Below, piece after piece: positions 37,829 through 62,744 of a stretch of DNA of 64,000 bases (its first letter is position 1; each line of letters opens with the position of its first letter). The stretch is taken from contig NZ_CP093442.1 in assembly GCF_022814725.1 (NCBI RefSeq), positions 1,550,001 through 1,614,000 of the forward strand, read 5' to 3'. The notes under the pieces were generated by a model. It did not search any database. It saw only the letters and a program-made list of their open reading frames with translations, and had not been told where the DNA came from. The translations under genes were made by a program, and so were the position numbers. The stretch comes from Bdellovibrio reynosensis (GTDB taxonomy: Bacteria; Bdellovibrionota; Bdellovibrionia; Bdellovibrionales; Bdellovibrionaceae).

Positions 37829-38821
37829 ATGAGGTTTAGGTTCTCAGGCGTTGCTTTATTGTTTTTTACTCTTCCGCTTTTTGCTGAAGAGCCTTCTCGC
37901 ATTGAGACACCTGAACTTCTTCCTGCACCGCTTTTACAAATCTCTGAAACAGAAGCTTTTTCCCGCTACGTTTTTCTAGTTGATAAAGAGCAACGTAAGC
38001 TCACCGTGTTTGAACGTAATGGTGAAAAGATCAAAAAGGTTGAAGAATACCCAGCTGACATCGGTAAAAAAGGTGGCAACAAAACCAAACGTGACGACCA
38101 CAAAACTCCAGAGGGCATTTACTTCTTAGAGAAGAAATTAACTCAACCGAAAATTCCGTTCAGTCTTTATGGAGCTTTGGCGTTTACTACGAACTATCCA
38201 AATCTTTTTGATCAGCGCGAGCATAAAACGGGCTCTGGCATTTGGCTTCACGCCATCCCTGACACAGTTCCGTTAACTCGTGGATCCCGCGGTTGCGTGG
38301 TTGTTAGAAATGAAGTGATCAAAAAGTTAGAAGATTATATTAAGCTGGGTGAAACGCCGATCTTGATCTTTGATCAAGTGAGCTATGTTACTAAAGATCA
38401 GCATGAACAGCGCCGTGTTCAAATGAACTCTTTTATTGAAGGCTGGCGCAATGCTTGAGAAAACCAAGACATCGAAAAGTACATGAGCTTTTACGATCAA
38501 GACTTCAAAGCTCCAGGTTTTAATTTCACTAGCTGGAAAGCCCACAAAGCTAACTTAAAGACTAAGTACGAATTTATCAAAGTACGTTTGTCACAACCTT
38601 ATATCGTAGCTCACAATGATCAGTTGCTAGTTAAGACGTTACAGCGCTATGAATCTGACCAGCACGTGGATTATGGAGTTAAGACTATTTACGCTTTAAA
38701 ATCAGGCGACACTTATAAAATCATCCGTGAAGAGTGGACTCCATTTAGTCAGCAAGAAGTCAGCGCTGCGATCGCTCGAGGCGATTCAATTACTGCGCAA
38801 GCTAATCAATCTCAGCAGTAG
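37829..38821 (+). pseudogene. L,D-transpeptidase with NTF2-like tail, interrupted by in-frame TGA
   Basis: One frame of 331 codons broken by a TGA at 38456-38458. The first part (209 residues) has a signal peptide and a YkuD L,D-transpeptidase domain with the catalytic His (WLHAIP) and Cys in SRGCVVV. After the TGA the same frame continues without a gap as ENQDIEKYMSFYDQDF, an NTF2-like C-terminal domain found fused to such enzymes. The flanking GWRNA-stop-ENQDIEKYM suggests TGA replaced a Trp TGG. The first product alone keeps the whole catalytic domain, so it may still work. A mutation, sequencing error or readthrough are all possible. I saw no selenocysteine signal. Confidence 0.75.
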
Positions 38822-53987: not shown

Positions 53988-54797
53988 ATGAACGTCGCCG
54001 GACGAATTATTTTTTTAATTATTTTTGTTTTCTGTTCTTTTGTTAGTGCGAAGGAAATTAAAGCGCATGTACCAGAGAAGCTTCTGTTAACGACGAACTA
54101 TTGGTGTCCGTATGTTTGCGATCCAACTTCAGAACGTCCTGGATATGTGATTGAAGTTTTGCGCCTTATCTATTCTAAAAAAGACATTCAGCCAGAGTTC
54201 TTAGTTACAAGCTGGGCCAGGGCGATGGCTGAAGTAAAAGAAAACCGAATTGCCGTTCTTGTTGCTGCAACTGCAAAGAGTTCACAAAAGCTCATTCGAT
54301 CACGACACGCTATAGGGATTCAGCGTATGGGTTTTTATACTCTTGCTGATTCCAACTGGCTTTTTCGGGGCATAAAATCCCTTGAACATAAAAAAGTCGG
54401 CATCATCAACGGGTATAGCTACGGTGAAGCCCTTGATATGTTTATCGAATACAAAAATAAATCATTGATTCCGATCTCGGGCGAGAAACCTATTGAACAG
54501 ATTTTAAAAATGGTTGAATCACGCAGACTTGATGCCGTCGTAGAAGAAACATTAGTTCTTAAAGATACGATGGATAAACTCGGCTTTCCTTCAACGAAAC
54601 TTCGCTTTGCTGGATGGGTGGATACGACAAATCCAATGCTGTATCTAGCATTCTCACCAGACAATCCAGAGTCTGCTCGTTATTTAGAAATTTTTGAAAC
54701 AGGCATCAGCGAATTACGCCGTACAGGAGAGCTTCAACGTATTTTGAAAAAGTACGGAACTGAAGATTGGGAAAAAATTAAATTCAAAAGTCTTTAA
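53988..54797 (+). CDS. periplasmic substrate-binding-like protein, tandem copy 1
   Basis: A 269-residue exported SBP family 3-like protein. GGGGG precedes the ATG. The mature part starts LLTTNYWCPYVCDP with an unusual Cys pair and continues with RPGYVIEVLR and VGIINGYSYGEALD. It ends RTGELQRILKKYGTEDWEK. It is a clear paralogue of the next gene. No transporter genes adjoin. Confidence 0.87.
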   Translation: MNVAGRIIFLIIFVFCSFVSAKEIKAHVPEKLLLTTNYWCPYVCDPTSERPGYVIEVLRLIYSKKDIQPEFLVTSWARAMAEVKENRIAVLVAATAKSSQKLIRSRHAIGIQRMGFYTLADSNWLFRGIKSLEHKKVGIINGYSYGEALDMFIEYKNKSLIPISGEKPIEQILKMVESRRLDAVVEETLVLKDTMDKLGFPSTKLRFAGWVDTTNPMLYLAFSPDNPESARYLEIFETGISELRRTGELQRILKKYGTEDWEKIKFKSL

Positions 54798-54971
54798 ATT
54801 TTATTACCGTGGACAAAATCCGTTACATCTTTTCGCCGGTTTTTTTATAACTTAAGATCGTAATTTGTTTGCCTAAAATTACATGTCCGAAATGACGCTG
54901 ATTTTTGCGTGCAACATGCTAAACAGCAAAGTATTTCAATGAAGTAAGTTAATAAGGAGAGGGGAAACCTT

Positions 54972-55859
54972 ATGAAGCTAACATCACTGATATTCTTTGT
55001 TGTTGCCATTATAGCTCTATTAAATGACTTCGCATTTGCGCAAAACACTGCGGAAGTACGCGAAACTCTTTCAATTAAATCGGATTATTGGTGCCCATAT
55101 GTCTGCGATCCAAATTCGGACCGCCCTGGCTACATGGTGGAAGTCGCTCGTCACATTTTTGATAAACACAATATCTCTGCTGACGTTTCTTTGACGAACT
55201 GGATTCGTGCAATCAAGGACACCCGTGTAAATAGAGCCCAAGGACTTATCGGTTCTGCCAAAACGGATGCCCCAGATTTTGTATTTCATAACAAAGCTCT
55301 TGGCGTTTCTCGCTCGGCTTTTTTCACACGAAAAGATTCTACCTGGGTCTATAAAGGACGCAAATCCCTGCAGAACATGCGTATTGGAATTATCAATGGC
55401 TATTCCTATGGAACAAGCATTGATAAAATGATCTCTGCCCGTCACAAATCTTTTATTCCTTTTTCTGGCGATAGACCCTTGGATCAAGTGCTGAAAATGA
55501 TTAAAAGCGGTCGCCTGGACGCCTTTATTGAAAATCCAATCGTCTTACATAGTGTCGTGAAAGAAAGAAAAATGAATGTTGATAGCCTGAAGGCCGCGGG
55601 CTGGGTGAAAAGCGATCAGCCATTCTTGTATTTAGCTTTGTCACCAGCCAATCCCAATGCAAATCAATATGCAGAAATGATGGATCGAGGCATTGAAGAA
55701 ATGCGCCGAAGCGGAGAGCTTCAACGCATTTTAGATAAATATGGATTGGAAGATTGGGAAAAATCGAAGATGTCCCTAGGAGCTGTGAATAATCTTAGCA
55801 CCGGTTTGCTCAAGAGCCCGCTTGATCTTTTCAACATGTTCTATACTGGAAGTCTCTAA
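54972..55859 (+). CDS. periplasmic substrate-binding-like protein, tandem copy 2
   Basis: A 295-residue paralogue of the preceding gene with the same hallmarks (YWCPYVCDP, RPGYMVEVAR, GIINGYSYGTS, SGELQRILDKYG and EDWEK). A strong GGAGAGGGG lies before the ATG. After EDWEK it carries an extra tail of about 27 residues, encoded antisense to the 3' end of ilvA over 84 nt. The sister protein stops soon after EDWEK, so the tail was probably gained by loss of an earlier stop. Confidence 0.87.
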   Translation: MKLTSLIFFVVAIIALLNDFAFAQNTAEVRETLSIKSDYWCPYVCDPNSDRPGYMVEVARHIFDKHNISADVSLTNWIRAIKDTRVNRAQGLIGSAKTDAPDFVFHNKALGVSRSAFFTRKDSTWVYKGRKSLQNMRIGIINGYSYGTSIDKMISARHKSFIPFSGDRPLDQVLKMIKSGRLDAFIENPIVLHSVVKERKMNVDSLKAAGWVKSDQPFLYLALSPANPNANQYAEMMDRGIEEMRRSGELQRILDKYGLEDWEKSKMSLGAVNNLSTGLLKSPLDLFNMFYTGSL

Positions 55860-58949: not shown

Positions 58950-58978
58950 AAAAAGCCGGGTTCTCCCCGGCTTTTTTT
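58950..58978. terminator. bidirectional intrinsic terminator
   Basis: GCCGGG (58955-58960) pairs with CCCGGC (58966-58971) with flanking A- and T-runs. It separates asnS from the convergent S74 protein gene. Confidence 0.87.
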
Positions 58979-61900
58979 ATTTTGAACTTAGTTTTTTTCT
59001 GATCTCTTCAAGTTGCTTTTCGTGATTATCTAAGCGGGCTTTCAGTGCTTCATTTTCCGCTTTTACTTTTTGATTTTCTAACTCTAAAGCTTTTAATCTA
59101 TGGTCATCGCCTTGTTGGCCTTTAATCACTAGTGCGTAAAGTTCTTTGATGGACTTCACGATCGGTGCGATCAGCTCAGAATAGTTAACTCCATAGTATT
59201 CAGATTCTTTTACTATCGCCGCAGGTTTTTCAGATGCTGTTGTACGCTTGATCTTTTGTTCTAAGTCTTGCGCGATGAAACCCCAGTGAGTTTTTGCATC
59301 CGCATTGTCTTTTTCTTTTTTCCATTTATACGAAACAGGCTCAAGACTTGTGATGAAGTTTAAGCCTTGTGGAATTTCTTTGATCTCTGTTTTTAAGCGA
59401 CCGTCAGAAGTTTGAATTGTACCATTAGAAGAATAGACTGCGCTCCAACGGTGGGTTGAATCCCCTAGCGAAAATGTCCCATCCGTTTCAGGTCTTAACA
59501 TGGACCCTGTCATCACTCCACCGGTGAAATCATTACCATAATTGATTATCAATATATTCCCAGCATTCTTAACTAACGCCCTTGAAGTACCCGAGTTACC
59601 GCGGCTGGTTTGATCATTATTGCCTAAAATAAAATCGAAGGAACCATTGATGAGTGTAGTACCGCGAATCGTTCCAGCTACATCTAAGTGGTAACTTGGT
59701 GTCGAGTCATTAATCCCAACATATCCCGACGAAGCAATTCTTACTCTTTCAGCTAAAGTAGTTCCGTTATTGGTTTCAAAACGTATGTGTGCAGGTGTTG
59801 CTCCCACCGACCATGCGGCAGTGGGGTCGGTATAAGCACGAATCGTAGCCCCGGATACAAGACCCGATCCGTTATGACCACTCAGAATAAGACCACCGAT
59901 ATTATCGCTTGCCTGAATGGCTGTTGGGGCAGTTAGAGTTCCACGCGCGCGCTTAAATAAGACCGCTGGAGTTGCAGATGCCGAGAAAGTACGGATGTTA
60001 ATATCATCGTAAAGATCGCCAGCGTTATTATTCACGATATCAAGTGCCACGATCGGATCATTAGTATTAAGACCTAAAAAGCCTTCTGAAGATAAACGCA
60101 TTTTTTCAGAAGTGGAAGTGAGAGTTCCAGTTCCAGAATTAGTTCGGAAAACTAAATCGCCAGGAGCTGAAGTTCCTGTCCAAGTCGCTGCTGGCACAGA
60201 GGTAATAATAGCAGCTGTTCCCACATCAGTGGTCGTTGCATAACCACTAAAGATAACATTACCTAAATAATCTTCTGCCGCAGCAGCTGTTTTACTTGCC
60301 GTCGTGCCACGGGATTTTAGAAATTGTAAGCCTGCCGCATTAGTGCTTTCTTCGTTACGTTCAAACAAAGCTGAAGAATCATTATAGGTTTCTCCCTGAA
60401 CATTGAATCTGACTGAAGGTGATGTAGTACCTAAACCGAAAAATCCAGATCCATCCACTGTCATTCTTGCAGTGTTGTTGGTCTTTAGTGTGAAGGTATT
60501 ATTATCATTCGTGCCAAGCACAGCTGCTACACCGAAGCTGTTCCCACCATTGATGAAAGCGCCATCGGCACCCGTTTTTGGAAGATCAGCTGAAGCTAAA
60601 GCGCGGAACGTCGGTGCGCCCGAAGATCCGTTTGGTGAAGCAAAAAACGAATTCGCAGCCGGAGTACCAAAGCTGACAGCCGAACTAGAAACCGCAATAT
60701 TTGTACAAGTATAACTGTCAGTGCCCGACACCCACGTCAAAGTTTGGGCGGCAGTACAGTTGGTTGGGAAAAATTGCGCATTCCCCGCAGCTGTAGAGCG
60801 AATATCAGTGATGTTAATATATCCTGGCGCCCAATTTGTTCCGTTATATTTGAAGAAATTATTAGTGGCAGTCGGCGCTGTTGCAACAACGCCGGTATTT
60901 TGAATTTTTCCAACCAACGTAGCGCCCGTATTAGAGATCGTAACGTCTCCTGCAGGAGTTACTGCCGTGGCCACATTTGAAGCATTACCAATCCGAATCT
61001 GCCCGTTATTCAAAGCTGTAGTCTGACCATTGATAGAAGACAATGTTGTCCACGATAAATTCCCAGAGCCATCATTGATCAAAAACTGATTTGCAGAGCC
61101 TTGTGCTGTCGGAAATTTGACGGCGTAGCTTGTTGAAACTGTGGTTGGCGCTTGCAGGGTTACAGTGTTTGAACCCGAATCTCTAAGAACCGTACTGCTT
61201 AATGAAGCAGTACCCGCAACGAAATTTCCGGAAGCATCACGTTTTACAATCGCTGAAGCTGTATTTGCGTTGGTCGCAGCATTCGCTAGAACAGTTGCTG
61301 CATTGATATTGGCAGCTGTAGAGCCACCAACAGAATTTACGGTCGCAGCCACCGAACCGGTTCCTGAAGCTGACACATCGCCTGTCAAAGAATTGATGGC
61401 AACACCCGTGCTGCTGACCCATGAAAGATTTCCAGAAGTATCACCAGAAAGAATTTGTCCATTCGCTGCAGGCAAAGCTTGTGGAAGTTTTAGGGTATAA
61501 CTTGCACCAATCGCAGTTGTCGGGCCTGTGATTTTAATTGTGTTTGTAGGTGATCCTGTTGGACTGCGAATATAAACGCTGTCTGAGTAAACATCAGTAC
61601 CATTCAAAGTCGAAGCGGTCACTGAGGCCACCGTCAAAGCGGCCGTATTTTTAATTCCACTTCCATCAAGTGAAATCGCAGTACAAATAAATCCACCTGC
61701 TGGCGAAACGAACGTCAAAGTTTCATCAGCATCGCAGATAGCAAATTGACTGTAGGTTGGAACATTTGACAGCGACGTCGATAAGCCTGTGATATCTGCA
61801 GTCACAAGTTTAGCCGGAACCCATTCACTAGCAGTTGCATCATAGCGTAAGGTTTGACCCGTCCCCGACGGTCCCGTTGATGAAACTGTAGCTCCGCGAA

Positions 61901-62744
61901 TTTTTGCAACACTAGGATTTGGATATGTTCCGGATAAGTCACCACCCGCTGCACCAGTCGGTGCACGAGCATCAGTGAAACGCGCATCATTACCTGCTGC
62001 CACTGTGTTTGCTGCAGTCCCTACGTTTAAAGTAACTACGGGCGCTGTTGTGGTATTCACTACCGAGATATATGCATTCGCTGAAGTGACTGAAGTCACT
62101 GTACCGCCATTAGCTCCACTCACACCGGTACAAGATAGCATCGATCCATCCCAGCTTAGAAAAGTTCCTGCAACACATGTTGGTAAGCCCACTTTCAAAA
62201 GAAAGTCACTTGCGGTGTATGTTCCAAGTTTAGCAGCCGAACTAGCAAAACCCGCAAAAGGAACAGAGCGAATGACAGAGTCTGGAGAAATTTGTTTCCA
62301 ACCTATTCCATCCCAAAACTGAACTCTAAGCACTCGGCCTTGATCCGCAACCGGTACATAGCAGTTCGGATTGTTTGAACCTTTGCAGTAGTAAGGAGTT
62401 GAATTATTAAAAGCACTTAGCAAATTGAAATTTAAAACGTAGGCAGCATCCAATACTTGTATGTTGGCGTCTGGAAAAACTTTGGTGCCGTTACCGATTG
62501 GTACATCAAACACACCTTTTGAACCTGACATATCGACAAAGCCAGAAAGTTCTTCATAGATCACGTATTGCCCTGTCGGATCCATAATCTTGAAGGCAAA
62601 TTGCACTTGCGAATATTCAAGTGGGCTTCCATCAGCTTTTATAATGCGACCTTGATAAGTGAGAGATTGAGGAGAAGCGTTTGCATTAGTAAGAGCTACT
62701 AAAAACACAATAAGAAATAACGTGCTTTGAAATATGTTTTTCAT
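58977..62744 (-). CDS. giant surface protein with C-terminal S74 chaperone domain
   Basis: A 1255-residue exported protein. A signal peptide ends near ANASP, followed by a globular N-terminal domain (about 24-165: SLTYQGRIIKADGSPLEYSQ). A long Ala/Thr/Gly/Ser-rich region with tail-fibre-like beta repeats follows (for example GAAGGDLSGTYPNP and ALNNGQIRIGNASN). The C-terminus has the endosialidase-type intramolecular chaperone (S74): SDGRLKTEIKEI, WGFIAQDLEQ and VNYSELIAP, then a coiled coil (about 1205-1255). Such domains trimerise and self-cleave in phage tail spikes. Here it is an exported, probably trimeric adhesin-like fibre; any prey contact is inference. Confidence 0.9.
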   Translation of the reverse strand: MKNIFQSTLFLIVFLVALTNANASPQSLTYQGRIIKADGSPLEYSQVQFAFKIMDPTGQYVIYEELSGFVDMSGSKGVFDVPIGNGTKVFPDANIQVLDAAYVLNFNLLSAFNNSTPYYCKGSNNPNCYVPVADQGRVLRVQFWDGIGWKQISPDSVIRSVPFAGFASSAAKLGTYTASDFLLKVGLPTCVAGTFLSWDGSMLSCTGVSGANGGTVTSVTSANAYISVVNTTTAPVVTLNVGTAANTVAAGNDARFTDARAPTGAAGGDLSGTYPNPSVAKIRGATVSSTGPSGTGQTLRYDATASEWVPAKLVTADITGLSTSLSNVPTYSQFAICDADETLTFVSPAGGFICTAISLDGSGIKNTAALTVASVTASTLNGTDVYSDSVYIRSPTGSPTNTIKITGPTTAIGASYTLKLPQALPAANGQILSGDTSGNLSWVSSTGVAINSLTGDVSASGTGSVAATVNSVGGSTAANINAATVLANAATNANTASAIVKRDASGNFVAGTASLSSTVLRDSGSNTVTLQAPTTVSTSYAVKFPTAQGSANQFLINDGSGNLSWTTLSSINGQTTALNNGQIRIGNASNVATAVTPAGDVTISNTGATLVGKIQNTGVVATAPTATNNFFKYNGTNWAPGYINITDIRSTAAGNAQFFPTNCTAAQTLTWVSGTDSYTCTNIAVSSSAVSFGTPAANSFFASPNGSSGAPTFRALASADLPKTGADGAFINGGNSFGVAAVLGTNDNNTFTLKTNNTARMTVDGSGFFGLGTTSPSVRFNVQGETYNDSSALFERNEESTNAAGLQFLKSRGTTASKTAAAAEDYLGNVIFSGYATTTDVGTAAIITSVPAATWTGTSAPGDLVFRTNSGTGTLTSTSEKMRLSSEGFLGLNTNDPIVALDIVNNNAGDLYDDINIRTFSASATPAVLFKRARGTLTAPTAIQASDNIGGLILSGHNGSGLVSGATIRAYTDPTAAWSVGATPAHIRFETNNGTTLAERVRIASSGYVGINDSTPSYHLDVAGTIRGTTLINGSFDFILGNNDQTSRGNSGTSRALVKNAGNILIINYGNDFTGGVMTGSMLRPETDGTFSLGDSTHRWSAVYSSNGTIQTSDGRLKTEIKEIPQGLNFITSLEPVSYKWKKEKDNADAKTHWGFIAQDLEQKIKRTTASEKPAAIVKESEYYGVNYSELIAPIVKSIKELYALVIKGQQGDDHRLKALELENQKVKAENEALKARLDNHEKQLEEIRKKLSSK

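Follow-up and report, generated by a model that had tools for sequence, protein, structure and literature searches.

The bd1075 gene of Bdellovibrio reynosensis, whose orthologue in B. bacteriovorus HD100 gives the cell its curvature, is interrupted by an in-frame TGA at codon 210. Our analysis indicates that the stop probably arose by a recent nonsense mutation, from TGG to TGA, which deprives the encoded enzyme of its targeting domain, and predicts that the strain grows as straight cells. Bd1075 is a periplasmic LD-carboxypeptidase that generates the vibrioid shape of Bdellovibrio (Banks et al, 2022; PMC8938487). The protein is directed to the convex cell face by its NTF2 domain (aa 196-304), deletion of bd1075 in HD100 yields straight cells, and a version truncated at E302 loses targeting and fails to restore curvature (PMC8938487). 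The only natural bd1075 loss described in that study is in the non-vibrioid strain 109J, which carries an inactivating 57-residue deletion (PMC8938487).

An interrupted orthologue of bd1075

We analyzed a window of 64,000 nucleotides (positions 1,550,001 to 1,614,000 of contig NZ_CP093442.1), to which all coordinates below refer. The gene occupies positions 37829-38821 on the plus strand and would span 330 codons plus a stop if read through. In the assembly sequence, the TGA at 38456-38458 shares its frame with the ATG at 37829 and is followed by 120 sense codons before the next stop at 38819-38821; an earlier note on this DNA had described the same unbroken frame, with a count of 121 codons that includes the terminal stop. 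The truncated frame (37829-38458, plus strand) encodes 209 amino acids comprising an apparent signal peptide, a complete YkuD domain (PF03734, residues 47-180, E 1e-18), and the first ~14 residues of the NTF2-like domain. In the read-through protein, this second domain matches Cds6_C (PF24125) over residues 199-302 with an E-value of 2e-18. The part past the stop (38459-38821, plus strand) matches Cds6_C on its own with an E-value of 2.4e-13, which identifies the continuation as homologous coding sequence rather than a chance open frame and bears out the NTF2-like assignment in the earlier note. Placed against the NTF2 domain limits given in PMC8938487, the stop lies ~14 residues inside this domain, not between the two domains as first proposed. 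These data confirm that the TGA is real in this assembly and that the gene is otherwise intact.

A phmmer search against the PDB returned B. bacteriovorus Bd1075 (7O21; E 2.4e-173) as the closest solved structure, followed by Csd6 of Helicobacter pylori and then Pgp2 of Campylobacter jejuni. The B. reynosensis gene and HD100 bd1075 encode proteins of ~80% identity and nearly equal length (330 and 329 aa), with identical numbering of the catalytic and pocket residues. By sequence, the gene is an orthologue of HD100 bd1075, so its product is assigned as an LD-carboxypeptidase in place of the L,D-transpeptidase named earlier. The truncated frame retains H141, A142, and C156 (HD100 numbering), including the His and catalytic Cys of the YkuD family within an HA...RGC motif, in agreement with the earlier view that the catalytic part is whole in sequence. 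Past the stop, the equivalents of the pocket residues Y274 and W303 (same numbering) are also preserved. Unlike in HD100, the frame here is cut at codon 210 and nearly the whole NTF2 domain is gone: Cds6_C is encoded but ends after ~14 residues in the translated protein, and the product would contain the domain only in the event of a sequencing error or of readthrough. H. pylori Csd6 (4XZZ) and C. jejuni Pgp2 (6XJ6), LD-carboxypeptidases that set helical shape, share the YkuD and NTF2 architecture of this gene, but they are dimeric, full length, and distant in sequence (E 1.6e-30 and 1.9e-21).

A domain search of the whole genome found bd1075 in single copy, with its Cds6_C domain the only one encoded. 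No paralogue with that domain can therefore substitute for the interrupted gene, and we rejected compensation by another Cds6_C protein.

Elsewhere in the window, two adjacent and apparently paralogous genes for periplasmic solute-binding proteins (SBP_bac_3) lie at 53988-55859 on the plus strand. The chromosomal gene at positions 58977-62744 encodes a protein of 1255 aa that has a signal-like stretch at its N terminus and, at its C terminus, a Peptidase_S74 (chaperone of endosialidase) domain reminiscent of tail fibres.

A stop codon restricted to one genome

In a comparison set with one genome per species, the gene was matched in 61 of 66 family genomes, and only B. reynosensis, 1 of these 61, has a stop in the conserved region. 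The TAA codons of one distant genome (G053) were rejected as a second case because they are located after that gene's natural end. At the level of the order, Cds6_C was found in 112 of 141 genomes, again with an internal stop only in the B. reynosensis match. The residue at position 210 is tryptophan in all 33 other aligned orthologues; the codon is TGG in the 32 that we read, and the remaining one (L038) also shows tryptophan. H. pylori Csd6 also has tryptophan at the equivalent position in the phmmer alignment. The suggestion of the earlier note that a tryptophan codon was lost (TGG to TGA) is thus upheld, and the comparison with related genomes that it called for revealed neither the same stop nor a split gene in any relative. 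No near-identical stretch turned up among viral contigs.

Two further observations concern the distribution of the gene. A bd1075 homologue in another genus (L127; G058:C144:30300-32600, minus strand, in an assembly of 150 contigs) stops short within the NTF2 domain, after ...GYTKKRWKMERS, with no obvious frame carrying the domain further; a further natural truncation or a joint in the assembly may account for this end. Five family genomes (G029, G049, G052, G055, and G057) have neither a bd1075 match nor a Cds6_C domain, and one of them, G029, is rated 100% complete.

Age of the stop and competing explanations

We gauged the age of the stop from pairwise pN values and from counts of changes at invariant sites. 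In pairwise comparisons with 23 congeners, the ratio of pN after the stop to pN before it is 0.87 for B. reynosensis, as against 0.77-1.14 for the other taxa. Amino-acid-changing differences are no commoner past the stop than before it and fall within the range of relatives with intact genes. None of 56 genus-invariant sites past the stop has changed, which, on the assumption of free drift after the stop arose, limits neutral change to at most ~0.022 per site (95%). Synonymous sites are near saturation relative to the nearest species. The lack of decay past the stop means that the stop is very young, that it is an error, or that it does not prevent translation.

The main rival to a nonsense mutation is a single-base sequencing or consensus error, in which case the true gene would read TGG and be intact. 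We consider this unlikely, at a level that still warrants serious attention. The tryptophan is invariant across all aligned relatives, conservation past the stop equals that of intact relatives, and a second lesion is absent, all as an error would have it. The assembly itself speaks against this account: it is a single contig of 3,582,323 bases rated 100% complete, and when we set the surrounding 400 kb against the matching region of one other genome (G021), this gene was the sole genuine interruption among 131 near-full orthologue pairs. We traced the other flagged interruptions in this comparison, two apparent frameshifts among them, to misjudged ORF starts or overlapping-frame artefacts. 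The assembly is thus not generally poor, and a rare one-base substitution error is still compatible with this result. An erroneous stop would call for correction of the public record.

If the stop does not prevent translation, UGA might be decoded at some rate to give a short and a long form of the protein. UGA is subject to basal misreading by tRNA-Trp, and the frame past the stop is intact and conserved, as such decoding would predict. Yet the stop occurs in no relative, which leaves no conserved readthrough programme, and the decoding apparatus appears ordinary: the sole Trp tRNA has the anticodon CCA, TCA is absent from the anticodons of all 33 tRNA hits, RF2 is intact, and TGA terminates 35 of the 250 ORFs of at least 200 aa in the 400-kb stretch. 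Overall, we regard readthrough as very improbable. Among specific forms of recoding, we rejected selenocysteine insertion because SelA was not found in the genome, and UGA reassignment or a suppressor tRNA because of the single tRNA-Trp with CCA, the intact RF2, and the use of TGA as an ordinary stop. Programmed readthrough was rejected as well: all aligned relatives have tryptophan, RNA structure around and after the stop is not significantly stable (z -1.2 to +0.4), and a search of Rfam families gave no match.

Separate translation of the second part, by reinitiation at the first in-frame ATG past the stop (38483-38485, plus strand), is the least probable of the explanations and barely credible. 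This ATG lies 24 bases past the stop. It is not a credible start, however, as its Shine-Dalgarno pairing is weak (duplex -0.7 kcal/mol, at background level), with 69% of all ATGs in the window pairing as well or better. Bd1075 acts in the periplasm (PMC8938487), but a product starting at 38483 would have no signal peptide and would be missing most of the first NTF2 helix. The gene is split in no relative. Of the four options raised in the earlier note, a nonsense change, which we favor, and a sequencing error survive. Programmed readthrough and two natural forms find no support, since no relative has the stop, recoding machinery or signals are missing, and the second part has neither a ribosome site nor a signal peptide.

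Predicted loss of curvature

With a nonsense mutation as the preferred explanation, a single-base change of TGG to TGA at codon 210 would end the protein ~14 residues into the NTF2 domain. We predict that the 209-residue product, with its catalytic domain, is synthesized and exported but lacks most of the NTF2 domain, including Y274 and W303. Without its targeting domain, the product would not reach the convex side wall, and localized wall trimming would not occur; the truncated product may also be unstable. Barring a sequencing error or readthrough at the stop, we predict that the cells are straight rods and enter prey more slowly. This loss of targeting and curvature is extrapolated from experiments in HD100, in which the truncation at E302 is much milder than the codon-210 stop here. 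The mutation is probably real and recent, and perhaps arose during culture. Two papers that cite the species do not mention its cell shape.

The gene, its domain, and the idea of natural loss were known before. To judge from the literature examined, the new element is that another species carries a second natural lesion of this shape gene, different from the first. Like the 109J allele, the B. reynosensis allele carries a natural, apparently inactivating lesion of this gene in a cultured Bdellovibrio. The lesion in 109J is an in-frame N-terminal deletion of 57 residues that abolishes catalysis, whereas the nonsense change here spares the catalytic sequence and eliminates the targeting domain. 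It is possible, and we propose it tentatively, that cultured Bdellovibrio repeatedly lose Bd1075, with B. reynosensis representing a second, independent, and mechanistically different inactivation in which targeting is lost and the catalytic domain is kept.

A second loss would make the shape of this strain (probably the B. reynosensis type strain) clearly predictable from its genotype, would matter to those who use it as a reference for shape or predation, and would bear on whether Bdellovibrio loses its vibrioid form in culture. If the proposal is true, the strain offers a natural means of asking whether an LD-carboxypeptidase that is not targeted can still bend the cell. The proposal would also suggest that curvature is selected against or left unprotected in laboratory passage.
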